Position numbers and translations under genes: made by a program
The notes under the pieces: model-generated
Told to the model about the DNA's origin: nothing
Databases searched by the model: none
The model's input: the letters and a program-made list of their open reading frames with translations, nothing else
DNA from: Flexilinea flocculi
Lineage (GTDB): Bacteria; Chloroflexota; Anaerolineae; Anaerolineales; Anaerolineaceae
Assembly (NCBI RefSeq): GCF_001192795.1
Contig: NZ_DF968181.1
Location: 1,974,974-2,038,973 of the forward strand
Length of the DNA: 64,000 bases
Reading direction: 5' to 3'
Shown: one piece after another, positions 4,480 through 58,627 of the stretch
How the letters are laid out: every line of letters starts with the position of its first letter
Position numbering within the stretch: position 1 is the first letter of the stretch

Positions 4480-4659
4480 TCATTCTTTTTCCCCAGAATC
4501 TTTTTTTTCCTTACGGATTGAAAGGAGCGCAATTTTCCCGTCAATCAATCGCATCGCCAGTTCGTCATTACATTGGTCACAAAAAAAGTGCCTGGATTCC
4601 GGTATTTGTTTTAATTTTTTTCCACAATTGGGACATCTGAGGATTATCTTAAATGACAT
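4480..4659 (-). CDS. Small zinc-ribbon protein, 59 residues
   Basis: The minus strand encodes a 59-residue protein starting MSFKIILRCPNCGKK. It carries two cysteine pairs, Cys9-Cys12 (CPNC) and Cys27-Cys30 (CDQC), spaced as in a zinc ribbon. A clean Shine-Dalgarno, AGGAGAAAATC, precedes the ATG at 4659. The C-terminus is lysine- and glutamate-rich. I assign no specific function; small CxxC proteins of this type often act as nucleic-acid or protein adaptors. An antisense reading frame over the same bases lacks any ribosome binding site and looks spurious. Confidence 0.65.
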   Translation of the reverse strand: MSFKIILRCPNCGKKLKQIPESRHFFCDQCNDELAMRLIDGKIALLSIRKEKKDSGEKE

Positions 4660-6094: not shown

Positions 6095-6236
6095 ATCTTT
6101 GAGATCTGTTGAAACCTCAAAATAACCTTGGACATACTTCTCGAATCGCGGTTTTAGCATTGGATAAGATGCTTTTTGGTAAATTGCGATAAACTTAAAA
6201 TTAATTAATCAATTGTACAGTCCAGGAGGTTTTTTC

Positions 6237-9200
6237 ATGGAAAACTATTTGTTCGATGGTCCTCTTTCAGAAATTGACGGAGCGATCGAATGGTTGACGA
6301 AGCTCGAAACAGAACGTCAAAAGCGAAAACTCATCATGATTCCCAGCGAATCTTTTGCACCTGAGTCTGTTCGTGAATCATTGGGATCAGTTTTTCAGAA
6401 TATCTATGCAGAAGGCTATCCGAACGAGGAATCCCGGTCATTATCTGAAGAAGAGCTGTTAGATTATCCTTCTATGCTGGGCGACTATCGCCGAAACTCA
6501 GATCCGCGATACTACAAAGGGGTGGATTATATTGACATCTTAGAAGCATTAACCCGCCGCCGATGTGCCGAAGCTTTTGCTAACGATCGCGTCAGCGCTG
6601 ATGATATTCAGGTAAATGTGCAGCCATTATCAGGAGCTCCTGCCAATAATGCAATTTATCATCTCATTAATCCCGGAGACACTGTTCTTGCCATGGATCT
6701 TCTGCACGGCGGACATTTAACACATGGGAGTCCGGTAAATCGATCCGGAATTCTGTATAATATTGTCCATTACACCGTTGATCCGGATACGGATATGCTG
6801 AATTACGATGAGATCCAACGGTTGGCAACGGAACATAAACCGAGGATGATCATCGCAGGATATACTTCCTACCCGTATATTCCTGATTGGAAACGCTATC
6901 GGGAAATTGCAGATAGTGTTGGAGCGTATCTTTTTGTAGACTTGGCTCATATCGCGGGTTTAGCCGCAGCAGGCGTGATTGAATCTCCTGTCGGATATGC
7001 TGATGTGATTTCTTTTACGACACATAAAACTATTTCGGGTCCAAGAGGCGCCGTTATTTTGACAACCGATCCGAAACTGGCAAAAATTATCGATAAAGCG
7101 GTTTTCCCAGGAGAACAAGGAGGTCCGCACGCTCATGTATTTGCCGCATTGGCAACCTCGTTTAAAATTGCAAAAACTGACCAATTCAAAAGATATCAAC
7201 AGCAAATTCTTGACAATACACAAGCTTTAATCCGCCAATTTCAAGCCAGAGGATTGAAAATCGCCTATCATGGATCCAACAGCCATATGGTACTGCTGGA
7301 TTGCAAAGGGATCAAAGGCACTGATGGAACGACACTTTCCGGTGACATCGCCGCCCGTATCCTGGATATCGTCGGTATCGTTCTGAATCGGAACACAATT
7401 CCAGGAGACAAATCAGCTTTGAAAGCCAGTGGAATCCGCATGGGCACTCCCTGTATCACGCAGATTGGTCTGAAAGAAGCGGATATGAAAGAAGTTGCTG
7501 ACATCATTGCGGATGTACTCTTTGCAATTCATCCATATTCCATGCCAGGAGCCAAAGGCAAATTACAGCGGGCCAGAATCGATTTCTCGGTTATGGAAGA
7601 TTGTAAGATTCGCGTTAGAAACCTTTGCGCACAAAAACGCGAGCTGAATCCTGATCCCGCATATGGCTATCCGCATTTTTATTACATAGATGATCAATTC
7701 AAATCCCGCAACGGTCAATCCGCCATTCTGATTCATGGCTGTCTCAATCGAGAATTTGTCAATTATGCGTTTCAAAGTGATGCGGAAGCTTTGCAAATGC
7801 ACACATATCAAAAAACTACCATAAGCGTAGATGGACAGCTTATTGAAGGCCGCCTTACATTAAGAGAGGAAGGATTCCAATTTGAATGTGAATCATCTAA
7901 GATGCCGATTGTGGCAGCCTGGCTGCGTGCGCTCTCGGACGGGTTTGTAAAATTTGATGATGATCTGCGTAAACGTCTGCCTGGCCCGGTTTATATTTCA
8001 GAATGTGAACCGATTAAGGGAATTGAATCTTCCCAAAAGGTTTTTGTCAAGCCCTATTCAATTGGTTCTAAAGTCACAGCAGGGAATCCACTTCCAAAAT
8101 TCGATTTTTCCAAGTACGCTGAAGATGAAAGTCTTCCGGCAAAAAAGACGCCATTATTTGAAACTCACAAAGCCCTTGGAGCAAAAATGGTTCCTTTTGC
8201 CGGTTGGGAAATGCCGGTTTGGTACACTTCAATTAAAGAAGAACATGCTGCCGTACGGAATGCTGCAGGATTGTTCGATGTGTCTCATATGGGCGTTTAC
8301 CTTGCATCTGGTCCTGACGCAATGGTTTTTCTTGACAGCATTGTTGGTAATGATGTAGCCGCAGTTCAGATTGGAGATACCTGTTATACACACTTGTTGG
8401 ATCCGGATGGCCATGTAATTGATGATTTAATCATTTACAGAATTGAATCAGAAAAATATCTGGTTGTAGTCAATGCCTCAAATGATGCAAAAGATTGGGA
8501 CTGGATAAACGCTGTCCGGGAACATTCAGTTTTAGTTGATAATGAACAACCAGATGCCTGCGCGTTTGGCAGAAATGTCATTCTTGAAAATCTTCGCGAT
8601 CCAAAAGCTGGTGATCGGATGCGAGTTGATCTGGCGCTGCAAGGACAGTTATCGACAGATATATTACTAAAGTTGGGAGCGTCTGAAGAAGATTCCGCAA
8701 AAATCAGGAATCTTAAAAAAGGTCACATCTGTCATGTTACACTGGGCGGATTCGATCTTTATACAGCGCGTACAGGGTACACAGGAGAAAAAATCTCATT
8801 TGAAATTTTTGTCCATCCGGAAAAGCTGCCAGCACTCTGGAATAAGCTTTTAGAAATCGGATCACCGATGGGTCTGAAACCTTGTGGTTTGGGATCAAGG
8901 GATTCGCTGCGAATTGAAGCAGGACTTCCATTGTATGGTCACGAATTGGCCGGACAATGTGATTATCGCGTTGGAGAAGCCGGTTTGAGCAGTTTTGTAA
9001 AAACCTATAAATCCTGGTTCATCGGTCGATCAGCATTTCGAAAGGACGAAGAAAATCAAAAACGAATCCTTGTTCGCTTCCGCTTCACGGATAAAACCGT
9101 CCGCCTGGCACACAACAATGATCCCGTTTTGGATTGCAAAGGGAAAGTTATTGGAAGGGTAACCAGCTGCGCGATGGATAAAGAAGGCTGGATTATGGGG

Positions 9201-9386
9201 CTGGCAATGCTGGATATGAAGTATACTGAAGAAGGGACAACTTTGTATATCTATCAAAACAGCGAGAAGACACAGCTAAAAAATCCTGATCAATTATCCG
9301 ATGGAGAAAAGATGACACTGCCCAATCAGGCCGTTGTTATCAGCCGTTTCCCCAAACCGGAAAAAAAAGAGCTGATTCCTTCATAA
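6237..9386 (+). CDS. Fused serine hydroxymethyltransferase-aminomethyltransferase (GlyA-GcvT)
   Basis: This 1049-residue protein joins two folate enzymes of glycine metabolism. Residues 1 to about 430 are serine hydroxymethyltransferase, with the PLP lysine at Lys264 in [12 protein letters not shown], although an insertion separates GYP from [10 protein letters not shown]. Residues about 440-630 form a segment I cannot assign. Residues about 635-1045 are the T-protein of the glycine cleavage system, with [20 protein letters not shown] and the C-terminal [20 protein letters not shown]. It would couple glycine/serine interconversion and methylene-tetrahydrofolate formation. AGGAGG lies 10 nt before the ATG at 6237. 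No gcvP or gcvH is nearby. Confidence 0.92.
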
Positions 9387-15932: not shown

Positions 15933-15961
15933 TTGACCTTTTTTAACATCCTTCTTACCAT
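15933..15961 (+). promoter_or_regulatory. Sigma-70-like promoter of the aldehyde oxidoreductase gene
   Basis: TTGACC at 15933-15938 and TACCAT at 15956-15961 are separated by 17 bp. They lie about 110 bp before the mop start codon in an otherwise gene-free stretch. Confidence 0.4.
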
Positions 15962-16074: not shown

Positions 16075-18804
16075 ATGGAGAAAAAGTTTTTAACAATTAA
16101 CGGTATTCGACAGACAGTCATCCATCATCCGGATTCGATGCTTGCAGATGTGCTGCGCAATCAAATCCATGTCTTAGGTGTAAAAAAGGGATGCGGCCAA
16201 GGACACTGCGGCGCCTGCTCAGTCATTCTGAATGGTAAGTTAACACTTTCCTGTATAGTAAGAATGGAACGAGTCCCGGATGAATCAACCATCCTCACTG
16301 TTGAGGGTATCGGGACTCCGGGCAAACTACACCCGATTCAGGCTGCCTTCAAGTTACACGGTGTCGCTCAATGCGGTTTCTGCACACCCGGATTTGTCGT
16401 TTCATCCTACGCGCTGTTGCTTGAAAACCCAAAGCCAAGCCGCCAGGAAATTCGAGACTGGTTTACAAAACATCATAACGTCTGCCGCTGTAATGGTTAT
16501 AAACCGTATGTCGACGCTTTAATGGAAGCCGCTGCTGTTCTCCGCGGTGAGAAGAAACTGGAAGAACTGATTTACAAAGAACCGGCAGAAAACAAAGTTT
16601 GGGGTACAAGCCGTCCAAGGCCTTCAGAAGAAGCAAAAGTGACCGGAACTTGGGATTTTGGCGCTGATCTTGCCCAAAAACTTCCTTCAGATACACTGCA
16701 ATGCGCTTTGGTTCAATCTGAAGTTGCACACGCGAATATCCTTGGAATCGACACATCAGAAGCTGAGAAAATGCCGGGAGTCTTCAAAGTCGTCACAGCC
16801 AAAGATGTCAAAGGCCGAAATCAGATCACCGGATTAATTACCTTCCCGACCAATAAAGGTGATGGATGGGATCGTCCGATTCTGTGCGATAAGAAAGTAT
16901 TCCAGATCGGCGATGCAATGGCAATTGTCTGTGCTGATACCAAAGAACACGCAGAAGCTGCAGCGAAACTCGTCAAAGTGGAATTGGAAGTGTTGCCTGC
17001 TTATATGAGTGCACCGGAAGCTATGGCAGATGATGCCATTGAGATTCACCCGGGAACACCCAATATTTACTTTGAACAAAAAACGGTAAAAGGAGAAGAA
17101 GTCGGACCGTTGTTCGAAAAAGCCGCTTTTGTTGCAGAAGGTGATTACTATCTGCAGCGTCAACCGCATCTGACAGTGGAACCGGATAATGGTTTTGCGT
17201 ATATGGATGAAGATGGTTGTCTCACCATTCATTCAAAATCAATCGGGATTCATCTTCATGCAGCGATGATTGCCGAAGGCATGGGAATCTCCATGGATAA
17301 ACTCAGACTGGTTGAGAACAATGCCGGCGGAACCTTCGGTTATAAATTCAGTCCTACATTAGAAGCGCTGCTGGGTGTAGCATGTCTGGCGACACAGCGT
17401 CCTGTTGTTTTAATCTATAACTACTACCAGCACATGACTTACACAGGAAAACGTTCTCCGATGTTCTTACATTGTAAGATGGGAGCAGATAAAGATGGAA
17501 AGCTGATTGCCATGGAAGGTGATTGGTTCGTTGACCATGGTCCTTATTCCGAATTTGGCGATTTATTGACATTGCGCGTCAATCAGTTTATGGGTGGCGG
17601 TTATAACATTCCCAACATCCGCGGAATTGGTCGAACCGTTTGCACCAATCATATCTGGGGCGCAGCGTTCCGCGGTTATGGATCTCCGCAGGCGTATCTG
17701 GCCTCCGAATCCTGTATCGATGAACTGGCAGAAAAAATGGGTATGGATCCATTTGATCTGCGATACAAGAACATTTATCGGGAAGGTTCCACCACTCCGA
17801 CAGGACAAAAGCCGGACAGTCTATGCTTCGAAAAAATGTTTGACACACTCAAACCGTATTATGAAGCTGCAAAAGAAAAAGCAAGAAAAGAATCCACCCC
17901 TGAGTTTAAGAAAGGCGTTGGTATCTCACTGGGTGTGTATGGCTGCGGTCTCGATGGCGTTGACAGTGCTGAAGCGTATGCCGAACTGACTCCGGAAGGG
18001 AAAGTGATCATCTTCTCCTCGTGGGGTGAACATGGTCAGGGAAATGATGCCGGCGCTCTCGGTACAGCTCATGAAACATTACGAACAGCTGGTTTCACAG
18101 TAGATCAGATTAAGTTGATTTTCAATGACATGAAATATACGCCGAATTCAGGACCTGCAGGTGGTTCCCGCTCGCAAACCATGGTTGGCAACGCAATTAA
18201 GATTGCCTGTGAAAACCTGTTAGCAGAGATGAAGAAGAATGATGGTACTTACCGGAATTTTGATGAAATGAAAAAAGACGGGAAAAGCACAAAAGTATCC
18301 GGAAAATTTGCGATGTCCGATGCAGTCGGCTGCGATGATAAAGCGCAGGGTAAACCGTTTATGGTTTATGAATACGGTTTGTTTATGGCGGAAGTAACCG
18401 TGGAAACAGCAACCGGTAAAACCAAAGTGGATAAATATACCTGCTATGGAGACTGCGGGAAAATCAACAACTATCTGATCGTTGAAGGGCAAATTCTCGG
18501 CGGGTGTACACAAGGCATCGGATTGGCTCTTTCAGAGGATATCGAAGATTACCAAAAACACACAACAATGCGTGGCGCAGGTGTTCCGTACTGCAATGAT
18601 GTGCCGGATGAATGGGATATCCGCTTCTTTGAGAATCCACGTGAATACGGTCCGTACGGCGCCGGCGGTGTCGGTGAATTACCGCTGACATCTCCGCATG
18701 TTGCGGTAATCAATGCGATCTACAACGCTTGCGGCGTCCGCATCCGCCATTTACCAGCGTATCCGGAAAAAGTACTGGAAGGTCTGAAAGCGCTAAAAAA
18801 TTAA
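16075..18804 (+). CDS. mop: Molybdenum aldehyde oxidoreductase (Mop, Desulfovibrio gigas type)
   Basis: This 909-residue xanthine oxidase-family enzyme oxidises aldehydes to carboxylic acids with a molybdopterin cofactor and two [2Fe-2S] clusters. The eight cluster cysteines fall at 40, 45, 48, 60, 100, 103, 137 and 139, the positions I recall for the D. gigas enzyme, and there is no FAD domain. The C-terminal catalytic glutamate is Glu868 in GGVGELPLTSP. AAGGAG lies upstream of the ATG at 16075, and a terminator follows. The downstream Fe-S and radical SAM cluster is probably functionally linked. Confidence 0.93.
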   Translation: MEKKFLTINGIRQTVIHHPDSMLADVLRNQIHVLGVKKGCGQGHCGACSVILNGKLTLSCIVRMERVPDESTILTVEGIGTPGKLHPIQAAFKLHGVAQCGFCTPGFVVSSYALLLENPKPSRQEIRDWFTKHHNVCRCNGYKPYVDALMEAAAVLRGEKKLEELIYKEPAENKVWGTSRPRPSEEAKVTGTWDFGADLAQKLPSDTLQCALVQSEVAHANILGIDTSEAEKMPGVFKVVTAKDVKGRNQITGLITFPTNKGDGWDRPILCDKKVFQIGDAMAIVCADTKEHAEAAAKLVKVELEVLPAYMSAPEAMADDAIEIHPGTPNIYFEQKTVKGEEVGPLFEKAAFVAEGDYYLQRQPHLTVEPDNGFAYMDEDGCLTIHSKSIGIHLHAAMIAEGMGISMDKLRLVENNAGGTFGYKFSPTLEALLGVACLATQRPVVLIYNYYQHMTYTGKRSPMFLHCKMGADKDGKLIAMEGDWFVDHGPYSEFGDLLTLRVNQFMGGGYNIPNIRGIGRTVCTNHIWGAAFRGYGSPQAYLASESCIDELAEKMGMDPFDLRYKNIYREGSTTPTGQKPDSLCFEKMFDTLKPYYEAAKEKARKESTPEFKKGVGISLGVYGCGLDGVDSAEAYAELTPEGKVIIFSSWGEHGQGNDAGALGTAHETLRTAGFTVDQIKLIFNDMKYTPNSGPAGGSRSQTMVGNAIKIACENLLAEMKKNDGTYRNFDEMKKDGKSTKVSGKFAMSDAVGCDDKAQGKPFMVYEYGLFMAEVTVETATGKTKVDKYTCYGDCGKINNYLIVEGQILGGCTQGIGLALSEDIEDYQKHTTMRGAGVPYCNDVPDEWDIRFFENPREYGPYGAGGVGELPLTSPHVAVINAIYNACGVRIRHLPAYPEKVLEGLKALKN

Positions 18805-18823
18805 CTGCAATTTGATAAGGTAT

Positions 18824-18856
18824 GAAGAGGCTGTCTTGAATCGGCAGCCTCTTTCG
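18824..18856 (+). terminator. Terminator after mop
   Basis: AGAGGCTG pairs with CAGCCTCT across a 10-11 nt loop, followed by TTTCGTTATT. It lies 20 bp after the mop stop codon. The 210 bp from here to 19069 hold nothing I recognise. Confidence 0.7.
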
Positions 18857-19068
18857 TTATTAGAGAGAACAGAGAGACAGCGATTTATATGTAATCGATC
18901 TCAGCTAATGAGAAAGAGTATTTGTTTAACAGTAATTGTTGTTCGGATCCCAACAATCACTGTACAACAAATTGATATCGATATTCAATCGTTGGTCAAT
19001 AATTTGAGCGACTGAGGAACTTTACGAACAAATCAATACCGAATACAATCAATGAATCAGAGGGAAAT

Positions 19069-19193
19069 CAGCAATTTGAAATACGGGGGGGAATTCTTTG
19101 TCATTGTGATGTTTTTATGTGCAGCGCAAAAACATCACAATGACTATTTTTTCCCGATTAATTCGAATAGCAAATTGATATTTCGAATTACTG
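19069..19193 (-). repeat. Dispersed hairpin element, copy 7 (reverse orientation, intact stem)
   Basis: The short arm with CAGCAATTTGAAATAC is on the left, and the long arm with ATTCGAATAGCAA and ATATTTCGAATTACTG on the right. The hairpin at 19100-19144 has a perfect 17-bp stem (GTCATTGTGATGTTTTT) around ATGTGCAGCGC. It ends 15 bp before the start codon of the next gene, so it forms most of that gene's leader. Confidence 0.85.
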
Positions 19194-19207
19194 GAGGGTA
19201 ATACAAC

Positions 19208-21496
19208 ATGGATCAACAGAAATTAAGATTGTTGGAATCGTACTGTATACAGGAAGAAGCGCCAGCATGTATTGCTGCCTGCCCCATGCATATGGATGTC
19301 CGATTATTGCTTCGCCAATTGAGAGATCATGATATGGATGGAGCGTTTAAAACTTATCGAAAAAGTATCCCGTTTCCATCAATATTAAGCCGAATATGCG
19401 AAGAACCTTGCCAGAAAAAATGCCGGCTCTCAGAAATTGGCGAAGGAATAAGCATTCGCGCTCTCGAATCCTTCCTTTTCTCCCGTTCGAATTCATCCGC
19501 TTTGCCGACGATGCTTCCGCAAAAAAATAAAAAAGTGGCATTTCTGGGTTCCGGGCTGGATGCTCTGGCTGCGGCATATGACCTGCGCCGTAAAGGCTAT
19601 ATTACGAAGATTTATGAACCTGCATCATCAGCTGGCGGATTTCTGAAAAATGTATCGGAAACGATTTTGCCCTCTCAGATCATCGATGACACTTGTTCTC
19701 TTCTTATTAAGATGGGAATCGAATTAAACCTATCGCAGCATACAACAGGATCTTCTGCCCTGCAAATTATTGACAGTGGAAAATTCAAAATACAGGATGA
19801 TGAATTTATTTGTGTGTACATTTCCGGCAACCTGGAAATTAACCGAATTGATCAAATTACTCGCATGACAGAAACCAGCGGTATTTTTGGCGGGACAGCC
19901 GCTCCAGAATCATGGATTGAGCAGGCAGCTGACGGAAGACGGGCAGCAATTTCAATGGATCGTTATATACAAAATGTATCGATGACTGCTTCCAGATCCG
20001 ATGAAGGCAGTTATGAGACGCGTCTGTTTACATCGTTAACTTCTGTTCCGCCATCCCATACTTTCATTCGGAATTCGCAAACAATACCGGACGAAGACAC
20101 TGCCATACAGGAAGCAGCCAGATGTATCCAATGTACTTGTATGGAATGTGCGAAAGGATGTGAATTTATCCGCCATTATGAAGCGTATCCCCGTGTTTAC
20201 CTGCGGCAGGTTTACAACAATGTGTCCATCTGCACGGGATTACGGCAAAAGAATAATATGATTAATTCTTGTTCCGTTTGCGGTCAATGTGAAAGCGTCT
20301 GTCCAAATAAATTGAATTTTCACGATGTCATACGGGAAACAAGGCAAACTATGGTGGAGACAAAAAAAATGCCCCCTTCAGCATTTGACTTTGCTTTGCG
20401 AGATATGATTTTTTCTAACAGCGATGCGTTTATGGTAGCGAAAAGCCCGGAAGGACATAAAGTTTGTTCATTTGTATTCTTCCCCGGATGTCAGCTTTCT
20501 GCCTCAAATCCTGCTGCAGTGGAAAAAGTTTATGCGTTATTGCTGGAAAAATTCAGCGATTCCACCGGTTTATTGCTGAGATGCTGCGGAATTATTGCAG
20601 ATTGGGCTGGCGAAAAAGAGAAATTTCAGCAGGCTCGCAATGAATTGCTTCAGGAAGTTGAATCTCTCGGAAATCCCGAATTGATTGTCGGTTGTCCTGG
20701 TTGCATGCAAACATTTCGAAATTTCTACCCTGCATTAAAGATTCGTTCCCTTTGGACCATATTGGATCAAATGGATATTCATTCGAAACAACATGAAACA
20801 ATACAAACCTTTGCGATTCATGATCCATGTGGAGCAAGATATCAACCAGAAGTTCAGGACGCTGTGCGATCGTTAGCAAAAAAAATTGGCATTCAATTGG
20901 AAGAACTCCCGCTGAACAGAGATCAAACTTCCTGTTGTACTTATGGAGGTAACGCCTGGAACGCAAATCGCTCGCTCAGCGATGCCGCTGTGGATGCCCT
21001 TGCTGCAGAGAATCCTCATGATTATTTAACCTATTGCGCCATGTGCCGTGATTTTTTTCTGAAACGGGGGAAAAATGCGTATCATATTTTAGATTTATTT
21101 TTTGATCCGGAGCGAATCATCAGCGGCAAAGCCATGCCAAGACCGGATTATTCCATGCGGCATGAAAACCGATCTCGTTTAAAAAAGCACTTATTAAAAA
21201 AGTATTGGAGTGAAGAAATGAACGCATCTGCACCTTATGAAAAGATCAAACTTTTTATTTCTGAGGAAGTCCGCAGCGTGTTAGAAGAAAGAATGATTTT
21301 AGTGGAGGATTTGCAGCAGGTTTTGTATCAAACGCTCGAAACAGGAAACCGGATGGTCAATGCACAAACTGGGCATTACCTGACCCATGCTACTCCGGGA
21401 CATGTAACGTATTGGATTGAATATTTGCCGAAGAATGATGGATATCAGATTTTTACTGCCTATTCACACAGAATGTTCATTGAGGAGGCAAACTGA
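19208..21496 (+). CDS. Multi-cluster Fe-S flavoprotein with CCG domains (DVU_1558-type dicluster reductase)
   Basis: A 762-residue soluble redox protein. Residues about 8-80 form a GltD-like cysteine region (CIAACPMHMDV, ICEEPCQKKC). Residues about 108-160 are an FAD-binding Rossmann motif (VAFLGSGLDALAAAYDLRRK). Then come a CIQCTCMECAKGC segment, a ferredoxin motif CSVCGQCESVCP, and two CCG domains (FFPGCQ..RCCG..GCPGC and HDPCG..CCTYGG..CAMC) as in heterodisulfide reductase subunit B. The NADPH half of a normal GltD seems missing. The likely role is electron transfer to or from Mop. The start codon at 19208 has GGAGGG upstream. Confidence 0.8.
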   Translation: MDQQKLRLLESYCIQEEAPACIAACPMHMDVRLLLRQLRDHDMDGAFKTYRKSIPFPSILSRICEEPCQKKCRLSEIGEGISIRALESFLFSRSNSSALPTMLPQKNKKVAFLGSGLDALAAAYDLRRKGYITKIYEPASSAGGFLKNVSETILPSQIIDDTCSLLIKMGIELNLSQHTTGSSALQIIDSGKFKIQDDEFICVYISGNLEINRIDQITRMTETSGIFGGTAAPESWIEQAADGRRAAISMDRYIQNVSMTASRSDEGSYETRLFTSLTSVPPSHTFIRNSQTIPDEDTAIQEAARCIQCTCMECAKGCEFIRHYEAYPRVYLRQVYNNVSICTGLRQKNNMINSCSVCGQCESVCPNKLNFHDVIRETRQTMVETKKMPPSAFDFALRDMIFSNSDAFMVAKSPEGHKVCSFVFFPGCQLSASNPAAVEKVYALLLEKFSDSTGLLLRCCGIIADWAGEKEKFQQARNELLQEVESLGNPELIVGCPGCMQTFRNFYPALKIRSLWTILDQMDIHSKQHETIQTFAIHDPCGARYQPEVQDAVRSLAKKIGIQLEELPLNRDQTSCCTYGGNAWNANRSLSDAAVDALAAENPHDYLTYCAMCRDFFLKRGKNAYHILDLFFDPERIISGKAMPRPDYSMRHENRSRLKKHLLKKYWSEEMNASAPYEKIKLFISEEVRSVLEERMILVEDLQQVLYQTLETGNRMVNAQTGHYLTHATPGHVTYWIEYLPKNDGYQIFTAYSHRMFIEEAN

Positions 21497-21708
21497 TGGC
21501 GCAATATGTTAAAAATGAAGAGTTCGCAGAATGGCGATGTGATAAATGCAACTGCGAACTGGAATTGAAAAAGGTCGTTGTATCGTATTTGGAAGGTTCA
21601 TTTCCAGTAGATCTTCCAGTCTGTAAGAAGTGCGGTCAAGTGTTCATTCCAGAATCGTTAGCCATTCATAAGATGCTCGAAATTGAACAACAAATGGAGG
21701 ACAAATAA
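21496..21708 (+). CDS. Small zinc-ribbon redox protein (DVU_1557-like)
   Basis: This 70-residue protein has two cysteine pairs, CDKC at about 15-18 and CKKCG at about 43-46, separated by a VVVSYLEGSFPVDLP segment. This spacing suggests a zinc ribbon or a small rubredoxin-like metal site. Its ATG overlaps the stop codon of the preceding gene (TGATG at 21494-21498), which implies coupling. The DVU_1557 resemblance is from memory of the Desulfovibrio neighbourhood and is supported by gene order. Confidence 0.7.
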   Translation: MAQYVKNEEFAEWRCDKCNCELELKKVVVSYLEGSFPVDLPVCKKCGQVFIPESLAIHKMLEIEQQMEDK

Positions 21709-22337
21709 TTTCCGGCACTACCTTTGAAACTTGCTTTCATCCAGGTGGTTTGGAATTGACAAAACGTCTGGTCCAATTGAGTGGAATTCCCGCTCATGCA
21801 GCCATTGCAGATTTGGGATGCGGGGAGGGTATTGTTTGTGAATTCTTGCATCGCAATGGGTTTGAGCCAACTGGTGTCGATCTGAGTAAGCATTTTATTA
21901 ATTCCAATGAAATCAAGTTTATACAAGCTGATTTTCTGGACTTGCCATTGATATCAAACTCTTTTGACGCAGTTATGATGGAATGTGTTCTATCCATCCA
22001 GAATGATCTTTCAACAGGTTTATCGGAAGCCCGTCGAATCCTGAAACAATCTGGATTATTACTATTGAGCGATCTGTATCTGCATTCCGATCAAGATAGC
22101 GATTGTAATCTGATTACAATGAACCAATATCTTGAGATAATCAGGAAGATGGGTTTTCAGATTATCCAATGGGAAGATCATACACGAGAATTAAGAGACT
22201 TGATTTTTAAAATTTTATGGGAACAAGATTCCATAGAGCCTTGTTGTTTTCCAAACGGGCAGCATGGAATGAAAGGATCGAGAAATCTGGGCTATTTTAT
22301 ATTGATCGGGAGAAAAAACGCTCATACATATGGATAA
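21708..22337 (+). CDS. SAM-dependent methyltransferase (TrsM/DVU_1556-like), probable non-ATG start
   Basis: The class I methyltransferase motifs are IADLGCGEGIVCEFL, a motif-II acidic residue in TGVDLS, and FDAVMMECVLSI. Residues upstream of the first conventional start (TTG at 21750) read FHPGGLELTKRLV, which looks conserved, so translation should begin earlier. Between that TTG and the upstream stop there is no ATG, GTG or TTG in frame. GGAGG at 21696-21700 is well placed for an ATT at 21708 (overlapping the stop TAA) or an ATA at 21705. I chose 21708, giving 209 residues. The methyl acceptor is unknown. Confidence 0.7.
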   Translation: MSGTTFETCFHPGGLELTKRLVQLSGIPAHAAIADLGCGEGIVCEFLHRNGFEPTGVDLSKHFINSNEIKFIQADFLDLPLISNSFDAVMMECVLSIQNDLSTGLSEARRILKQSGLLLLSDLYLHSDQDSDCNLITMNQYLEIIRKMGFQIIQWEDHTRELRDLIFKILWEQDSIEPCCFPNGQHGMKGSRNLGYFILIGRKNAHTYG

Positions 22338-22386
22338 ATCCGTTCAATTATTCGGCTTTATCAATGTTATTGAATTTGAAAAATTC

Positions 22387-22508
22387 CAGTAATTCGAGAT
22401 ATTAACCAACTTTTCGAATCAATCGAGAAAACCCGTTGTCGTGTTTTTTTTCGCTTTGTACAGAAACAACACAAAAATAAATGAATTTCCCCATATTTCG
22501 AATCGCAA
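22387..22508 (+). repeat. Dispersed hairpin element, copy 8 (inside the operon)
   Basis: The long arm CAGTAATTCGAGATATTAAC with TTCGAATCAATCGAG is on the left, and the right end is ATATTTCGAATCGCAAG. The stem GTTGTCGTGTTTTTTT is imperfect. It fills the only sizeable gap of the Fe-S/radical SAM gene cluster. Confidence 0.7.
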
Positions 22509-22578
22509 GAGAAATACTCGATTGGAGATTTTGTTAAAAACAGAATACTGAATCGAAACTGGTAAAAAGGAGTTATCG

Positions 22579-23031
22579 ATGGAAGAAATCGAAGAATTAT
22601 TACAATATGGCCGTCAAGGCTACAATTGCGGTCAAATTATGATGATCCGGGCTTTAGAGATGCAAGGGAAAGAAAATCCTGATGTTGTGCGTGCTATGAC
22701 CGGCTTCGCAGGCGGAATAGGATGGTCAGGCGATCTTTGCGGAGTGCTCACGGGCGCCGTTGCTGTGTTGGGGCTATATGCAGGCAAAGGATCTTTACAG
22801 GATCAGGATGATGTACGGCTGATGTTTATGATTGAAGATCTGATTAAGTGGTTTAAAGAGAGATATGGGGAAACATACGGCGGAATTCATTGCAATGAGA
22901 TTTTAGGTTTAAATTCAGGGAAAATTGATATGGATCGCTGCCCTGTCATGATCGCTGAAACGTTACAATATATTAAAGAGTTATTAGTCAAAAATGGTTA
23001 CGATCTTACCGGGGGAATCCTGGATGAATGA
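22579..23031 (+). CDS. C-GCAxxG-C-C family protein (DVU_1555-like)
   Basis: A 150-residue cytoplasmic protein with the C-GCAxxG-C-C family pattern: NCGQIMM near the N-terminus, FAGGIGWSGDLCGVLTGAVAV in the middle, then HCNEILGLN and DRCPVMI. The conserved cysteines suggest a metal or redox cofactor site; no reaction is known for the family. AAGGAG precedes the ATG at 22579. The stop overlaps the start of the radical SAM gene. Confidence 0.8.
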   Translation: MEEIEELLQYGRQGYNCGQIMMIRALEMQGKENPDVVRAMTGFAGGIGWSGDLCGVLTGAVAVLGLYAGKGSLQDQDDVRLMFMIEDLIKWFKERYGETYGGIHCNEILGLNSGKIDMDRCPVMIAETLQYIKELLVKNGYDLTGGILDE

Positions 23032-24391
23032 ACCCCGAATATTTTCACAGACACAAAGCGTCTGTCCGGTTTGTTTAAAAGTCATCCCGGCAATGGAAGT
23101 CATCAGAGAAAATCATCATGTCTATTTGGAAAAAACGTGCCCGGATCATGGTTCTTTCTCTGTGATTACCTGGCGGGGTGAACCTTCGCTGGAAACTTGG
23201 GGGATGAAAAACATCCCCGCTCATCCGGATCATCCATTTACCAATCTGAACTATGGCTGCCCGTATGATTGCGGGCTCTGTCCGGATCATGAACAGCAAC
23301 CCTGTTGTGTTTTATTGGAAGTCACGCAGCGATGTAATCTGCAATGTCCTGTTTGTTACGCTTCTGCCGGGATCTCCAAACGAATGGATCCATCCATCGA
23401 CACGATCCGTTTCTGGTATCAGCGACTGATGGAAGCAGGCGGTCCATTTAATATTCAGCTTTCCGGCGGGGAACCATCGCTCCGAGACGATCTTCCGGAG
23501 ATCATTCGCATCGGGAAACAGATGGGGTTTAACTTCTTTCAACTCAATACGAATGGAATTCGAATCGCAGAGGAGGAAGGTTTTCTTGAAACACTGAAAG
23601 AAGCCGGACTAAATACTGTCTATCTTCAATTTGATGGGACAGAAGATTCAATTTACCAACGCATTCGCGGAAAACCGCTATTCGATTTGAAGAAGAAAGT
23701 CATAGAACGATGTCAGAATGCAGAAATCGGTGTCGTCCTGGTTCCAACGGTAATTCCGGGAATCAATGACTGGAATCTGGGAGAAATCATCCATTACGCT
23801 ATTTCTCATATTCCAGTAGTTCGGTGTGTCCATATCCAACCTGTTTGTTATTCCGGAAGAATGATGCAAAAGCCTGAAAATAAAGACCGGTTGACCATTC
23901 CGGAAATATTTCGAAAAGTGGAAGAACAGACAAACGGATTGATAAAAGTTGACCATTTTAAACCAGGCGGTGGTCAGCATCCGATGTGCGGTTTTCAGGC
24001 AAATTTTGTCCTGATGGAGGATGGGACCTTAAAAGCTTTATCAAAATTTGTTCCGAATGAAAAAACGGAAGGTTGCTGCTGTAAATCCATAGAAGCTTCA
24101 GCCAGTAGAATAAAAGCTCAAAATTTTGTCGCAAAGACATGGACTTTTCCTGAAAAAATTCACTTAAAACAAAGGAATCCAGAGCCGTTTTTTTCGGAAT
24201 GGGATCATTTTCTTGAGCGGAAGAAGAACTATCAGTTCACCATTTCAGGAATGGCATTCCAGGATGCCTGGAATTTAGACCTGGAACGCCTTAGAAGCTG
24301 TTATATCATGATCGTATCGCCGGAAGGGAATCTGGTTCCTTTCTGTGCCTGTAATTTAACAGGTGAATCCGGAAATTCAATCTATCGATGA
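23024..24391 (+). CDS. Radical SAM protein (TrsS-like)
   Basis: This 455-residue radical SAM enzyme carries its [4Fe-4S] motif at Cys104-x3-Cys108-x2-Cys111 (CNLQCPVC). An N-terminal zinc-ribbon-like region (CPVC at 14-17, TCPDHGSF) and a further cysteine group (CPYDCGLC, QPCC) precede it. The C-terminus contains CGFQANF and VPFCACNLTG. I recall related proteins being selenoproteins in some genomes; no in-frame TGA is used here. The ATG at 23024 overlaps the preceding gene by 8 nt and has GGGGGA upstream. The substrate is unknown. An in-frame ATG at 22994 is too far inside the upstream gene. Confidence 0.8.
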   Translation: MNEPRIFSQTQSVCPVCLKVIPAMEVIRENHHVYLEKTCPDHGSFSVITWRGEPSLETWGMKNIPAHPDHPFTNLNYGCPYDCGLCPDHEQQPCCVLLEVTQRCNLQCPVCYASAGISKRMDPSIDTIRFWYQRLMEAGGPFNIQLSGGEPSLRDDLPEIIRIGKQMGFNFFQLNTNGIRIAEEEGFLETLKEAGLNTVYLQFDGTEDSIYQRIRGKPLFDLKKKVIERCQNAEIGVVLVPTVIPGINDWNLGEIIHYAISHIPVVRCVHIQPVCYSGRMMQKPENKDRLTIPEIFRKVEEQTNGLIKVDHFKPGGGQHPMCGFQANFVLMEDGTLKALSKFVPNEKTEGCCCKSIEASASRIKAQNFVAKTWTFPEKIHLKQRNPEPFFSEWDHFLERKKNYQFTISGMAFQDAWNLDLERLRSCYIMIVSPEGNLVPFCACNLTGESGNSIYR

Positions 24392-25704
24392 ATCCAAATA
24401 TCGTCTCCGATCCCAAAATCAATCAAACAGAACTGACTGCATTGCCGCTGACACCCGTTCAACTTGAAATTGAGCGGAAAATTGGGATTTTAAGGGACTC
24501 ATTGTCGACACAAATCTTACAACAATGGCAGTTAGCTCGATTGAATCAGGTATTGCAATATGTAAAAAAACGCAGCCCATTTTATCAAAATTTGTTTGCA
24601 TCTTTCCCTGAACACCTGAATAGTTTTACAGAATTTGAAAAATATCCCTTTACAACGGCTGATGACATCGCAAAAGAAGGAAATCGGATGATCTGTGTCT
24701 CACAAAGCGAGATTGCCCGAATCGTCACGCTGGATACCTCAGGAACAACCGGTAAACCAAAACGCATCTTTTTCACACGGGAAGATCAAGAATTGACGAT
24801 TGATTTTTTTGGTGTTGGTATGTCCACTCTGATCGAACCAGGATACAAAGTTCTGATCCTTTTACCCGGGAATACTCCAGGAAGTGTCGGAGATCTTTTA
24901 CAGAAAGGTATCGAAAGAGTCGGTTCTATCGGGATCCAGCATGGACCGTTTACTGATCCATATGCTACCAATACACGGATCGAAGCGCTCCGGATTCAAA
25001 CGCTTGTCGGTACGCCAAAACAAGTATTTACGCTGGCTCGAGTCTGGCAAATAGCTGGAATGAAAAATTGTCCGGTTCGTTCTATTTTATTATCGACCGA
25101 TTATGCAGCACCTTCTCTGATGAATCGTATACGAGAAACCTGGAATTGCAGCATATTGCAGCACTACGGTATGACAGAAGCTGGTTTGGGCGTCGGGATT
25201 GATTGCGCTGCGGCAAGAGGATTCCACTTGCGGGAAGCCGATCTCTATTTTGAATTGATTGATTCAAATGGGCTGCCAGTTCCTGACGGGACTCCCGGAG
25301 AAGTCGTTCTCACAACTCTGACGCGGAAAGGAATGCCGTTGATCCGCTATCGATCGAAAGATATCAGTCGGGTGATCCAAGGAGACTGCCCCTGCGGCAC
25401 GGTTCAAAAAACTTATGAATGGATTAAAAAGCGAAAAGATGATGATCCATCAATCATTTCGATCCAACAATTGGATGATTTAATCTTCGACCAATCCGGA
25501 ATCAATGGTTTTAATGCTGCATGGATCGGGAAAGACTTAAAACTGAATCTATACTGGGAATCAGAGTCTCATTTCAAAAATGCATCTATCATTGATCGGA
25601 TGATTCGAGATCAGCATCCTTTAATAACGCATATAATTATCCAAAATGAAATTGGATTTCCAGACTCTGCTTTTGAAATGAGAAAAAAAAGAATCGCGTC
25701 ATGA
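24388..25704 (+). CDS. AMP-dependent CoA ligase-like protein (DVU_1553-like, PaaK relative)
   Basis: The 438-residue protein has the phenylacetate-CoA ligase fold. The nucleotide-binding motif TLDTSGTTGKPKRIFF is at about 113-128, and YGMTEAGLGVG and PLIRYRSKDISR are the later conserved motifs. The C-terminal domain is short. In this family a carboxylate is adenylated and usually joined to CoA; an aldehyde or acid handled by Mop would be a logical substrate, but that is inference. ATGA overlap with the radical SAM gene shows coupling. Confidence 0.82.
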   Translation: MNPNIVSDPKINQTELTALPLTPVQLEIERKIGILRDSLSTQILQQWQLARLNQVLQYVKKRSPFYQNLFASFPEHLNSFTEFEKYPFTTADDIAKEGNRMICVSQSEIARIVTLDTSGTTGKPKRIFFTREDQELTIDFFGVGMSTLIEPGYKVLILLPGNTPGSVGDLLQKGIERVGSIGIQHGPFTDPYATNTRIEALRIQTLVGTPKQVFTLARVWQIAGMKNCPVRSILLSTDYAAPSLMNRIRETWNCSILQHYGMTEAGLGVGIDCAAARGFHLREADLYFELIDSNGLPVPDGTPGEVVLTTLTRKGMPLIRYRSKDISRVIQGDCPCGTVQKTYEWIKKRKDDDPSIISIQQLDDLIFDQSGINGFNAAWIGKDLKLNLYWESESHFKNASIIDRMIRDQHPLITHIIIQNEIGFPDSAFEMRKKRIAS

Positions 25705-26306
25705 ATCAAGAAAAATCTACAGTCCAAATAGATAAATTAAAGTCCGGAGACGAGGAATCGTTTGCAATGTTAGTTGATGAGACATCTGGGAAAATTTATC
25801 GCACCTTACTTCAGATTCTGGGCAACGAACAAGACGCGGAAGATATTTTACAAGAAACGTATTTGAAAGCCTATCGTGCCATCCCTGAATTTGAAAACCG
25901 ATCCGGTTTATATACCTGGCTTCACCGCATTGCCCTGAATGAAGCACTGATGCAGATTCGGATTCGGAAACCGCAGATTGTCTCTATTGATGACAATGAG
26001 CCTTTTTCCGATGATCTGGATATTGAACAGAAGGACATTGTTGATTTCTGCTGTCTGCCTGAAGGAGAATTGCTCTCCAAAGAAAGCCGGCATTTTTTAG
26101 ATCAGGCAGTCCAAACCCTTCCCGAATCTCTCAGAATTGTTTTCGTAATGCGCGATATAGAAGGATTATCGACGCAAGAAACCGCTGATGCATTACAAAT
26201 CAGTGAAAACAATGTGAAAATCAGACTGATGCGGGCACGGATGATCCTAAGAAAAAAACTTTCAGCATACTTCAACAAGTTTTTCATTGAGGAAAAAGAA
26301 TTATGA
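25701..26306 (+). CDS. ECF-type RNA polymerase sigma factor
   Basis: A 201-residue sigma-70 family protein. Region 2 reads EQDAEDILQETYLKAYRAI with YTWLHRIALNEAL. Region 4 is LPESLRIVFVMRDIEGLSTQ followed by a helix-turn-helix (ETADALQISENNVKIRLMRA). An acidic linker of about 40 residues lies between. The ATG overlaps the ligase stop (ATGA at 25701-25704), and the stop overlaps the anti-sigma start the same way. This is an unusually tight link of a sigma factor to a metabolic cluster. Target promoters are unknown. Confidence 0.9.
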   Translation: MNQEKSTVQIDKLKSGDEESFAMLVDETSGKIYRTLLQILGNEQDAEDILQETYLKAYRAIPEFENRSGLYTWLHRIALNEALMQIRIRKPQIVSIDDNEPFSDDLDIEQKDIVDFCCLPEGELLSKESRHFLDQAVQTLPESLRIVFVMRDIEGLSTQETADALQISENNVKIRLMRARMILRKKLSAYFNKFFIEEKEL

Positions 26307-26578
26307 AAAACCATAACCATGCTCCATCATGCAAACAAATGTTAGGAAATCTTTCGGAATTCATTGATGGTGATCTGCAAGCGGAATTGTGCTCTGAAAT
26401 TGAAGAACATTTAAAAAATTGCAAAAATTGCCGCATCGTAGTTGACACACTGAAAAAGACTGTAGAACTTTATGAAAAATGTGCTTCTGAAGAAACAAAT
26501 TTACCGAATGACGTGCGCGAACGATTATTTAAAAAATTAGCATTAGATGATTTGAAAAAGCACCAAGAATCTTCATAA
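26303..26578 (+). CDS. Zinc-binding anti-sigma factor
   Basis: This 91-residue soluble protein carries the ZAS signature HLKNCKNC (HX3CX2C) with an upstream histidine/cysteine (HAPSCKQML). It has no membrane helix, so it resembles the cytoplasmic redox-sensing anti-sigma factors such as RsrA rather than RsiW. Overlap with the sigma gene by 4 nt fits a sigma/anti-sigma pair made in equal amounts. A redox or metal signal is a reasonable guess. Confidence 0.85.
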   Translation: MKNHNHAPSCKQMLGNLSEFIDGDLQAELCSEIEEHLKNCKNCRIVVDTLKKTVELYEKCASEETNLPNDVRERLFKKLALDDLKKHQESS

Positions 26579-26583
26579 TGGAT

Positions 26584-26705
26584 CAGCATTTCGAAATTTA
26601 TGCAGATTATCGGATACTGAGAGAAATTTTGATGCTGTGTGATTTTTGAGCAGAACTTATAAATCACACAACATCAAACAATCCTCCTACGATTTCGAAT
26701 TAATG
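26584..26705 (+). repeat. Dispersed hairpin element, copy 9
   Basis: It starts 6 bp after the anti-sigma stop with CAGCATTTCGAAATTTATGC and ends GATTTCGAATTAATG. The stem at 26629-26677 (TTGATG-TGTGTGATTT with AAATCACACA-CATCAA, one bulged pair) could work as the operon terminator, although no T-tract follows. Confidence 0.75.
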
Positions 26706-28477: not shown

Positions 28478-28813
28478 TTAGTTTTTTCCAGCAAGGAAAT
28501 CATTCACCAGGTTTTTCAACCCTGATTCGGAAAGAGCGCCTACCTGTGTTTTTACAACTTGCCCCTTGGAAATAAAAAGCATTGTCGGTATACCCTGAAC
28601 ACGATAATTGACCGCCCATTGGCTGTTTTCATCCGTATTGACCTTTGCCACAATGATTTTACCGGAATACTCTGACGCAATTTTATCTAACAATGGAGCA
28701 ACCATCCGGCAAGGCCCGCACCAGGGAGCCCAAAAATCTACAAGAACCGGAAGCTCAGCTTTTAATACTACTTCTTCAAATTGATCATCATTGACATGAA
28801 TAACACTGTTCAT
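28478..28813 (-). CDS. trxA: Thioredoxin
   Basis: The 111-residue protein carries the active site WAPWCGPCRM and the cis-proline loop GIPTMLFI, both standard for thioredoxin. The ATG at 28813 is chosen because GGAG lies 6 nt upstream; an in-frame TTG at 28825 lies within that ribosome binding site. It follows trxB by 17 bp, so the two are cotranscribed. It is the likely reductant for the ArsC-like protein at 1259-1681. Confidence 0.96.
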   Translation of the reverse strand: MNSVIHVNDDQFEEVVLKAELPVLVDFWAPWCGPCRMVAPLLDKIASEYSGKIIVAKVNTDENSQWAVNYRVQGIPTMLFISKGQVVKTQVGALSESGLKNLVNDFLAGKN

Positions 28814-28830
28814 TTTTTTCTCCAATTATT

Positions 28831-29832
28831 TTATTGTTTTTTCTCTGACCAATCAACCATCATGCGACTGCGGCCATTTATTTCTTTTTCAATTGCCATT
28901 GCAGCTATAGCACCCTCTGCGGCAGAAACAACTACTTGCTTTACATGGGTACATAAAACATCCCCAATAGCATAAACTCCCGGAATGCTGGTCTGAAAAC
29001 TGGAATCCACTATCAGGCATCCGCTTTGTGAAACTTCCAGTTGTCCCTGAATAAAATCTGTCACCGGTCTGCCGCCTTGCAAGTACACAAATGCACCTGA
29101 AACGCTCAGCAATACCTCATGCTGATCCGATTGAACCGCTAATACAGCTTCTACGCGATTTTCGCCAATAATTTCTTTTAGTTTTGTTCCTGCATATAGA
29201 ATAACTTTTGGATGATTCTTCAGCGTTTCCACAAGTTCTTGCGGTGCAGCCAAACGTTCCGTCTGGGACAGGAAATAGACCTGATTCGCATATTTGGTTA
29301 AAAATAAAGCCTCCTCTATCGCTTCATCAGTATTTCCTGCGACAACAACATCTTTATTTCGATAAAAAGCCGCATCACAAGTTGCGCAATAGGAAACGCC
29401 ATGACCAAGCAGCCGATCTTCTCCTTGAATTCTGACCCCTCTTCCCATCGACCCCGTGGAGATAATCACGAATCGGCTGTTATATACGCCTCCATTTCCA
29501 AAAATGCTTTTCGTTTCACTTTGTAGATCAACCCCAATCACTTTATCAGAAATATATTCAGCTCCGAATAATTTTGCCTGCTCCCGCATTTTTTCAACCA
29601 GTTGTGCGCCGCTGATCTCTTCTACAATTCCGGGATAATTGACGATTTTTGAAGTAATACCAAGTGCTCCGGATGTCAATCCTTTGTCCACAACCAATGT
29701 TTTTAATCCTGAGCGGGCTGCATAGATTGCTGCAGTTGAACCGGCAGGACCGCCGCCGATGATCACAACATCATAATTTGCAGACGCTTTCTGACTCTCA
29801 TTTGAATTGTTTTTTATTTGATTATCTTCCAT
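28831..29832 (-). CDS. trxB: Thioredoxin reductase-like flavoprotein with atypical pyridine nucleotide site
   Basis: A 333-residue FAD protein. The FAD motif GGGPAG is at 26-31, the redox pair CATC at Cys149-Cys152, and the C-terminal FAD motif GVYAIGDV is present. The central domain differs from ordinary TrxB: the GGGDSA-type NADPH loop is replaced by VVVAGNTDEAIEEA, and the HRRxxxR motif that binds the 2'-phosphate of NADPH is replaced by SQTERLAAP. It may therefore use another donor (NADH, reduced ferredoxin or a flavin). The start at 29832 has GGAG 6 nt upstream. It is cotranscribed with trxA. Confidence 0.88.
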   Translation of the reverse strand: MEDNQIKNNSNESQKASANYDVVIIGGGPAGSTAAIYAARSGLKTLVVDKGLTSGALGITSKIVNYPGIVEEISGAQLVEKMREQAKLFGAEYISDKVIGVDLQSETKSIFGNGGVYNSRFVIISTGSMGRGVRIQGEDRLLGHGVSYCATCDAAFYRNKDVVVAGNTDEAIEEALFLTKYANQVYFLSQTERLAAPQELVETLKNHPKVILYAGTKLKEIIGENRVEAVLAVQSDQHEVLLSVSGAFVYLQGGRPVTDFIQGQLEVSQSGCLIVDSSFQTSIPGVYAIGDVLCTHVKQVVVSAAEGAIAAMAIEKEINGRSRMMVDWSEKKQ

Positions 29833-29921
29833 CATCAGCTCCATTTTTTTTCTTCATTGATATTAGATGCAAAAATCAAAAGAAAGTTACAATGGGTTTT
29901 CCAAATTCATCAAATCCGCTG

Positions 29922-43611: not shown

Positions 43612-43765
43612 CAATGAAATAATCTGATCCAAACGGCCAAACGGCTACATAAACACACATATGAAATCAAAATTTGATAAATCGTAATTTTTTTTATAAT
43701 AATCAGGGATTTTTTGAGTGGGCGGAACAGGACTCGAACCTGCGACCCCATCCTTGTAAGGGATG
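43612..43765. repeat. Right direct repeat flanking the AbiE cassette (att-like)
   Basis: Partner of 41852-42005, 1760 bp away. It contains the 3' part of the intact tRNA-Val and the adjacent 3' flank, so this is the copy with the intact tRNA. Confidence 0.8.
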
Positions 43766-43792
43766 TGCTCTAACCAACTGAGCTATCCGCCC
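43719..43792 (-). tRNA. tRNA-Val(TAC), copy 1
   Basis: The 74-nt minus-strand gene folds into a standard cloverleaf: acceptor GGGCGG/CCGCCC, D arm GCTC-AGTTGGTTA-GAGC, anticodon loop CTTACAA (anticodon TAC) in a CATCC/GGATG stem, T loop GTTCGAGTC. No CCA is encoded. It is identical in all 74 positions to the copy at 45484. Confidence 0.95.
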
Positions 43793-45425: not shown

Positions 45426-45483
45426 TTTTTCGGATCGAACCGGATTGGAAAGCGTTTTGGTTTTGTATCAAAGAAAGAAATAG

Positions 45484-45557
45484 TGGGCGGAACAGGACTC
45501 GAACCTGCGACCCCATCCTTGTAAGGGATGTGCTCTAACCAACTGAGCTATCCGCCC
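45484..45557 (-). tRNA. tRNA-Val(TAC), copy 2
   Basis: Identical in all 74 positions to the copy at 43719-43792, with the same cloverleaf and no CCA. The flanks differ entirely between the two, so only the gene itself is duplicated or conserved. It is transcribed towards the secreted-protein gene. Confidence 0.95.
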
Positions 45558-58574: not shown

Positions 58575-58627
58575 TTTTTAACAGAGGTGTAACCCTTAAT
58601 AAATATGAGTTACACCTCTGTTAAAAA
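58575..58627. terminator. Second hairpin between receptor and ATPase genes
   Basis: AACAGAGGTGTAAC pairs with GTTACACCTCTGTT, with further A/T pairing outside. A T-run lies on the minus-strand side. It may set partial read-through to the ATPase. Confidence 0.65.

Follow-up and report, generated by a model that had tools for sequence, protein, structure and literature searches.

The window analysed here is a stretch of 64,000 nucleotides from Flexilinea flocculi (contig NZ_DF968181.1, positions 1,974,974 to 2,038,973), and its positions 16075-26578 hold nine open reading frames, confirmed at the boundaries given below and all on the plus strand. The run begins with the molybdopterin aldehyde oxidoreductase Mop, continues with a gene set around the radical S-adenosylmethionine (SAM) protein TrsS, and ends with an extracytoplasmic function (ECF) sigma factor and a zinc anti-sigma factor. 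Based on a profile search against NCBIfam, TIGRFAM and Pfam, eight of the nine proteins exceed the curated cut-off of a family of the expected kind. We read the locus, with a probability of about 0.6, as two units lying side by side: a Mop/TrsS operon set and a separate thiol-stress sigma pair. Its features are as follows.

15933..15961, plus strand: sigma-70-like element TTGACC-17-TACCAT before Mop (consensus match; kept in Flexilinea sp. MO118)
16075..18804, plus strand: Mop-type molybdopterin aldehyde oxidoreductase, 909 aa (NF045668, 1552 bits, cut-off 1100)
18826..18852, plus strand: hairpin and T run 3′ of Mop, a probable terminator as read from the sequence (kept in MO118)
19208..21496, plus strand: dicluster flavoprotein (NF045663, 977 bits, cut-off 530; Pfam domains)
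21496..21708, plus strand: DUF7479 / DVU_1557 redox protein (NF045645, 94 bits, cut-off 60; PF24292)
21750..22337, plus strand: DVU_1556-type SAM methyltransferase with a TTG start (NF045667, 151.9 bits, cut-off 155)
22579..23031, plus strand: C-GCAxxG-C-C protein (CGA) of the DVU_1555 family (NF045669, 155 bits, cut-off 103)
22994..24391, plus strand: TrsS radical SAM protein, likely start 23024 (NF045646, 639 bits, cut-off 490)
24388..25704, plus strand: DVU_1553-type AMP-binding (adenylate-forming) enzyme with a diverged C-terminal lid (NF045666, 428 bits, cut-off 300)
25701..26306, plus strand: ECF sigma factor of an Anaerolineae thiol-redox-type subfamily (TIGR02937, 99 bits, cut-off 43)
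26303..26578, plus strand: zinc anti-sigma factor, HxxxCxxC at residue 36 (PF13490, zf-HC2, 39 bits, cut-off 22)

A preliminary description of this DNA stated that overlaps of 1-8 nt link most of these genes and that ATGA overlaps couple the sigma and anti-sigma genes. Both statements hold: five of the eight junctions overlap in this way when TrsS is taken to start at 23024 (from the first ATG, at 22994, the overlap with the CGA gene would be 38 nt), and ATGA is present at both junctions of the sigma pair. The remaining three junctions are gaps of 403 nt (Mop to dicluster flavoprotein), 41 nt (DUF7479 protein to methyltransferase) and 241 nt (methyltransferase to CGA). In the window, the sequence upstream of the TTG at 21750 encodes the residues with which the homologue from the same genus begins; the true start of the methyltransferase perhaps lies there, which may explain why its score falls slightly under the cut-off. 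Mop aligns over its full length with the Desulfovibrio structures 1DGJ and 1SIJ (1279 and 1277 bits); the dicluster flavoprotein comprises, according to Pfam, a Fer4_20 domain, an NAD-binding part, a 4Fe-4S dicluster and a CCG domain; and two CxxC pairs can be read in the DUF7479 protein. Since the conserved hairpin at 18826-18852 follows Mop, this gene is probably transcribed separately from the remaining cluster. The hairpin is missing from our automated scan, in which loops measure 3-8 nt, and the sigma-70-like element before Mop counts by its conservation alone, as such sites number 28 in the region while 33.6 are expected by shuffling.

Hairpins with arms like GTGATGTTTTT/AAAAACATCAC, near ATTTCGAAT words, lie in the gaps 5′ of the dicluster gene (19089-19155) and 3′ of the anti-sigma gene (26628-26678), in other gaps, and at about 4585-4650 of locus L183 (G and L numbers are our designations of genomes and loci). 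The ATTTCGAAT 9-mer has 29 copies on both strands of the window, and the hairpins look like a short interspersed repeat.

The likeness of the cluster to the Desulfovibrio set DVU_1551-1559, pointed out in the preliminary description, is borne out by curated NCBIfam models that name the same proteins; besides the seven models listed above for Mop and the cluster (NF045663, NF045645, NF045667, NF045669, NF045646, NF045666 and NF045668), they include NF045664 and NF045665. Six of the seven cluster proteins are above the curated cut-offs, the dicluster flavoprotein, DUF7479 protein, CGA, AMP ligase and Mop all being adjacent to TrsS, and the gene order matches that of many loci in the Mop clade described below. 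The cluster itself is therefore not new, the set being already known to NCBI curators; what differs here is the ECF/anti-sigma pair that follows it. Neither the XdhC-like gene nor the nucleoside triphosphate (NTP) transferase gene of the Desulfovibrio set lies in the gene run of the window. XdhC homologues occur elsewhere in the genome, unlinked (373 and 324 bits, cut-off 350), and no DVU_1551 NTP transferase above the cut-off was found in the genome, the best candidate being a 213-aa frame with 123 bits (cut-off 315). Because, among 81 loci, the XdhC-like family (F8, NF045664) lies near TrsS in no more than 27 and the MocA-like NTP transferase family (F7, NF045665) in no more than 30, linked copies of these two factors are not strictly defining for the TrsS set. 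A NifS-type desulfurase family (F14) is present in six of the same loci; these blastp families are each named from one representative, that of F7 being fused to a phosphatase. When the 81 loci were read through TGA with nine cluster profiles, no in-frame TGA appeared in the TrsS, CGA or Mop matches, and the single one seen was in a dicluster-like stretch of locus L113; a selenocysteine form of TrsS, suggested by the NCBI label “(seleno)protein”, thus finds no basis in this sample. Among the records listed by our search of the open-access literature, there was no paper on the cluster and none on this sigma factor in Chloroflexi, and the parts of PMC10102598, PMC8941075 and PMC4287179 available to us do not mention the cluster.

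That the cluster is tied to Mop had been proposed from this locus, and phylogenetic profiling supports it. We drew 150 genomes from the order of the genome that carries the Desulfovibrio locus L108 (G427), presumably Desulfovibrionales. As first scored, TrsS was found in 83 and Mop in 90 of them, with both in 81, Mop only in nine, TrsS only in two and neither in 58 (Fisher p = 3e-29, uncorrected for relatedness). Re-examination of six of the nine Mop-only genomes, for which sequence was fetched, located TrsS and the cluster beside Mop in five; the missed TrsS proteins align in pieces or span over 500 alignment columns, a probable reason for their falling under the threshold. The corrected table of 150 genomes has 86 with both, four with Mop only, two with TrsS only and 58 with neither, where the 83 TrsS-positive genomes and three of the four Mop-only genomes (G647, G649 and G651) stand as first scored. 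The fourth, G573, has Mop without any cluster gene in the 19 kb fetched and without TrsS above the threshold, while in one of the two TrsS-only genomes (G715) the contig ends beside the cluster, in the place expected for Mop, and the other (G637) has a partial TrsS. The link between cluster and Mop is strong and, in this one order, near-obligate. At three loci of the same order (L190, L191 and L192), the TrsS alignment is split into two or three pieces, an indication that the gene may contain an insertion. Among 400 genomes drawn evenly from the phylum of Flexilinea, TrsS exceeds its cut-off in two (its own and G121) and Mop likewise in two (its own and G264); because each is so rare in this draw, the cluster is sporadic in Chloroflexota.

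From genomes at large, we sampled the best 80 of 499 confirmed TrsS candidates in genome contigs, a sample that leans toward relatives of the query and whose closest member is that of MO118 (84% identity). Mop lies near TrsS in 47 of the 80 loci. Of the other 33 genomes, 16 have Mop elsewhere, either above the cut-off (14) or in pieces (two: split across two contigs in L048, a fragment in L090), and 17 have none above the cut-off, among them that of L113, with a 799-bit relative. In a maximum-likelihood tree of the 81 TrsS proteins and eight outgroup rows resembling tetraether synthase (Tes), built by a quick method with SH-aLRT support only, 67 members form a Mop clade with support 100, and Mop is present in 64 of them and missing from three metagenome bins. 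The prospect that the cluster might mostly occur without Mop is thus not what the sample shows, except for the 14 proteins of two deeper clades, none of whose genomes has Mop above the cut-off. One of these clades is archaeal, with six members from Thermoplasmatota, mainly Methanomassiliicoccus-type, in which the Mop search gave zero candidates; the other comprises eight bacterial members, of which six bear a Chloroflexi or Dehalococcoidia label and two a Deltaproteobacteria label. The 14 deep-clade genomes nevertheless have, near TrsS, the DUF7479 protein in 13, the AMP ligase in 12 and the methyltransferase in seven; in the nine deep loci with sufficient flank, the counts are nine for DUF7479, nine for the AMP ligase and zero for Mop. 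In the Mop clade, 39 of 66 loci have sufficient flank, and there we found Mop in 36, the dicluster flavoprotein in 38, DUF7479 in 37, the methyltransferase in 37, CGA in 33, the AMP ligase in 36, and the ECF and anti-sigma factors in one each.

The Mop-free neighbourhoods offer other candidate partners. An HdrA2/sulfhydrogenase-like electron module adjoins TrsS in L092 (with related families in L077) and double-cubane-reductase-like proteins in L091 (with related families in L067 and L074), all below curated cut-offs; several archaeal loci have a URO-D-type protein, a MEDS/PAS sensor and a DUF169 protein, and the neighbours in L112 (of MnmA, alanine racemase and aminotransferase type) are uninformative. 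The Mop-free DVU_1556-type methyltransferase of L092 (9108-9941) matched arsenite methyltransferase models at 123 bits (cut-off 263), hinting at the methylation of a soft atom, e.g., sulfur.

TrsS itself is, at the level of sequence, a full-length relative of tetraether synthase. It is homologous to Tes / GDGT-MAS (7TOL) at residues 18-455 (292 bits, whole sequence), and the two largely share a conserved cysteine pattern: 14 TrsS cysteines occur in 97% or more of the 67 Mop-clade rows. Of these, 12 (C24, C27, C49, C89, C93, C96, C104, C114, C118, C121, C436 and C451) also occur in 88% or more of the eight Tes-like rows, whereas C240 and C332 are kept in just 12% and 38% of the latter. TrsS differs from Tes in scoring 365 bits on NF045702, below the Tes cut-off of 450, in forming a clade apart from the Tes-like rows, and in its gene neighbours, of which those identified do not resemble lipid genes. 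Bacterial Tes homologues have been surveyed in a study whose authors we take to be Zeng and co-workers. The portion available to us reports 456 such homologues and suggests a role in bacterial membrane-spanning lipids (PMC8941075).

From gene content, homology, the co-occurrence with Mop in one order and the deeper-branching Mop-free core, we put at about even odds a pathway in which the TrsS set would build or transform a small molecule and Mop would oxidise its aldehyde form. The dicluster flavoprotein and the DUF7479 protein would supply electrons to TrsS, which may start radical chemistry at an unreactive carbon; the adenylate-forming enzyme and the methyltransferase would prepare or finish the molecule, in an order that we infer, and its aldehyde form would be the substrate of Mop. 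The competing idea, raised in the preliminary description, is that the set is a maturation machine, which would produce a modification of Mop or of its molybdenum cofactor, or put it in place. The near-obligate Mop link suits this role equally well, and the XdhC-like, MocA-like and NifS-type genes found near some TrsS loci (27, 30 and six of 81) would fit it too. We nevertheless favour a pathway, because TrsS persists without Mop, together with DUF7479 and the AMP ligase, even in the six archaeal genomes with zero Mop candidates, and because the structure of D. gigas Mop shows nothing unusual. As far as the consulted part of that report goes, two Fe-S centres accompany a molybdopterin cytosine dinucleotide in the 1.28 Å structure, no further modification is described, and flavodoxin can serve as an electron acceptor of the enzyme (PMC10223205). 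G573, with Mop and neither an adjoining cluster gene nor TrsS above the threshold, also speaks against maturation. Making or repairing the Mop cofactor is possible but not favoured, and we regard the maturation role as unlikely.

Several further observations weigh against the small-molecule pathway or the strength of its support. The 80 loci and the order draw are non-independent samples, and the statistics ignore relatedness. Distances of Mop correlate with those of the other cluster proteins at r 0.61-0.79, while TrsS, the dicluster flavoprotein and the AMP ligase reach 0.85-0.88 among themselves; with certain partners, the methyltransferase and CGA likewise show weak correlations, the lowest being 0.51, and we give these values little weight, as they come from 32 loci with no species-tree control. 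The PF14535 C-terminal lid of the AMP enzyme is detected in none of 26 Mop-clade proteins, that of the window included, versus 11 of 12 from the Mop-free clades. Three of the 26 (L071, L083 and L115) are shorter than 370 aa, too short for a full lid. In the remaining ones, the profile alignment spans the lid region and a terminal lysine-arginine pair is kept in the consensus; the lid in the Mop clade is accordingly read as mostly diverged, not vanished. The window enzyme thus differs from PaaK-type CoA ligases in having no recognisable PF14535 lid, and because this lid goes undetected across the Mop clade, the CoA-ligase label appears unsafe there and ordinary CoA ligation insecure. A broader and speculative proposal, which we consider improbable as a whole, is that an undescribed radical-SAM pathway extends from Methanomassiliicoccales to Clostridia. 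It would consist of TrsS, DUF7479 and the adenylating enzyme, joined in many lineages by the methyltransferase, and its tetraether-synthase-like chemistry would yield a single redox-active small molecule, either a new cofactor or a C-C-coupled metabolite; Mop would be the commonest of several redox partners, others being HdrA/sulfhydrogenase-like or double-cubane-reductase-like.

The sigma pair was analysed through its relatives. From the upstream regions of 14 ECF relatives, the window being left out, we derived the motif TGTAAC-N16/17-CATCTA. With up to one mismatch allowed, the 14 loci contain 15 such sites, against an expectation of 0.5, and by its coordinates the motif stands right before the ECF gene in nine of the 14. 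The 3.51 Mb Flexilinea genome, searched for exact matches only, contains two (the reversed control gave none); they precede thioredoxin reductase and rhodanese genes, and none precedes the cluster. The first of them lies 3′ of the nine-gene run, where PdxT, PdxS, thioredoxin and thioredoxin reductase genes are encoded on the opposite strand, and the same predicted site precedes thioredoxin reductase in MO118.

29864..29891, minus strand: predicted ECF promoter TGTAAC-16-CATCTA before thioredoxin reductase (26.7 bits, the best of the window; the next scores 15.7)
28831..29844, minus strand: thioredoxin reductase (TIGR01292, 311 bits, cut-off 343)
28478..28825, minus strand: thioredoxin, probably co-operonic with thioredoxin reductase (TIGR01068, 124 bits, cut-off 97)
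G000:C2:355678-355705: second exact ECF-type promoter, before a rhodanese-domain gene

Drawing on the homologues in the order, the promoter motif and its sites, we consider it highly likely that this is a thiol-stress ECF factor with a zinc anti-sigma factor and that its targets are thioredoxin reductase-thioredoxin and rhodanese, not the cluster. Thiol oxidation would cause the anti-sigma factor to release the sigma factor, and the released factor would then transcribe these genes. In the Flexilinea lineage the pair came to adjoin the 3′ end of the cluster, and read-through from there may set the sigma supply. Some points tell against this assignment. The motif core was the commonest spaced pair in a first enumeration, but in just five of the 14 regions (shuffles gave three); five of the 14 relatives have no site at one mismatch or fewer right before the ECF gene; and the recognition of the motif by the ECF factor is inferred from sequence.

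The preliminary description had instead assigned the sigma pair to the cluster as its own regulator. ATGA overlaps at both junctions and the same order and close spacing in MO118 are what such control would lead one to expect. Nevertheless, no good motif precedes any cluster gene: where promoters had been anticipated, upstream of 16075 and 19208, the best scores are 8.0 bits (Mop) and 0.4 bits (dicluster flavoprotein), with -1.5 before CGA and 3.8 before the ECF gene itself, compared with 26.7 before thioredoxin reductase, although a weaker site at the cluster could still be used by the sigma factor. The conserved sigma-70-like element before Mop and the distribution of the pair also stand against it. 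ECF matches at E ≤ 1e-25 occur in 67 of 151 genomes of its own order (own genome included; the best others share 50-58% identity), with none at this threshold in G176 and G560 of the same genus, and the pair is located away from cluster genes in all 14 relatives fetched. Near those relatives, OsmC-type genes are present in nine, disulfide-oxidoreductase-type genes in five and either in 11, and TsaD-, SelA- and peptidase-type genes lie upstream of ECF in several, these names resting on one representative each. A second ECF match among the 80 loci, in L067, was rejected as unrelated (27% identity, about 8 kb from a dicluster-like gene, no anti-sigma match).

Among the loci examined, the pair adjoins the cluster solely in the window genome and in MO118, which share 84% identity in TrsS, 88% in the ECF factor and 81% in the anti-sigma factor. 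The genes 5′ of the run in the window are of rRNA-methyltransferase, ProC and MtaB type. In G564, of the same genus, that rRNA-methyltransferase gene likewise has the cluster nearby; the dicluster gene there is interrupted by unread bases, different genes come after the cluster, and neither a sigma nor an anti-sigma match is present in the 19.9 kb fetched around it. In six more genomes of the genus (L173-L178), the rRNA-methyltransferase locus holds no cluster gene. Because of these two arrangements, the joining of the pair to the cluster was probably recent and local. Control of the cluster by this sigma factor therefore seems to us very improbable, and the claim that the cluster has its own sigma factor is very probably wrong: judged by promoter sequence, the predicted regulon is unrelated to the cluster. 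The suggestion of a redox-responsive unit probably stands for the sigma factor, as a thiol-stress regulator, and falls for the sigma factor as the cluster's own.

The pair recalls SigR/RsrA in the HxxxCxxC of its anti-sigma factor and in a predicted target of the thioredoxin kind; the likeness is weak in the RsrA model TIGR03988 (38 bits, below the cut-off of 62.5), and the promoter differs. The SigR form, which we take to be GGAAT-GTT, gave seven loose matches with no common position in 28 upstream regions (two expected by simple shuffling), and its strict form gave zero in the same regions.

Compatible with two units lying side by side is a functional coupling through the join, whereby transcription of an oxygen-sensitive cluster would raise the level of the thiol-stress sigma factor and keep thioredoxin ready. 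Both the window genome and MO118 retain the join together with the thioredoxin-reductase promoter, and the ECF gene here is without the promoter element found before it in nine of 14 relatives; against this, the join is missing in G564, the third genome of the genus with the cluster, and just two related genomes show it. We regard the coupling as tentative and somewhat doubtful.

Three further features of the window were recorded. At 6213-9386, a 1057-aa frame combines a serine hydroxymethyltransferase domain (99-432) with an aminomethyltransferase GcvT domain (649-915), a fusion of one-carbon enzymes that is unusual to our knowledge. Two identical tRNA-Val(tac) genes (43718-43792 and 45483-45557, minus strand) lie around a 365-aa plus-strand frame. 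A near-perfect palindrome, AGGTGTAAC...GTTACACCT, was a by-product of the promoter scan at 58588-58616.

This analysis confirms and sharpens the link of the cluster to Mop. TrsS is a widespread radical SAM enzyme related to an archaeal enzyme that joins membrane lipids, and we found no described reaction for it; its partners, with Mop nearly always present in one large clade and never in the sampled deep clades, narrow its possible function. The sigma pair, in turn, illustrates that an operon-like overlap is not proof that a regulator serves the operon, and that an adjacent regulator can mislead.

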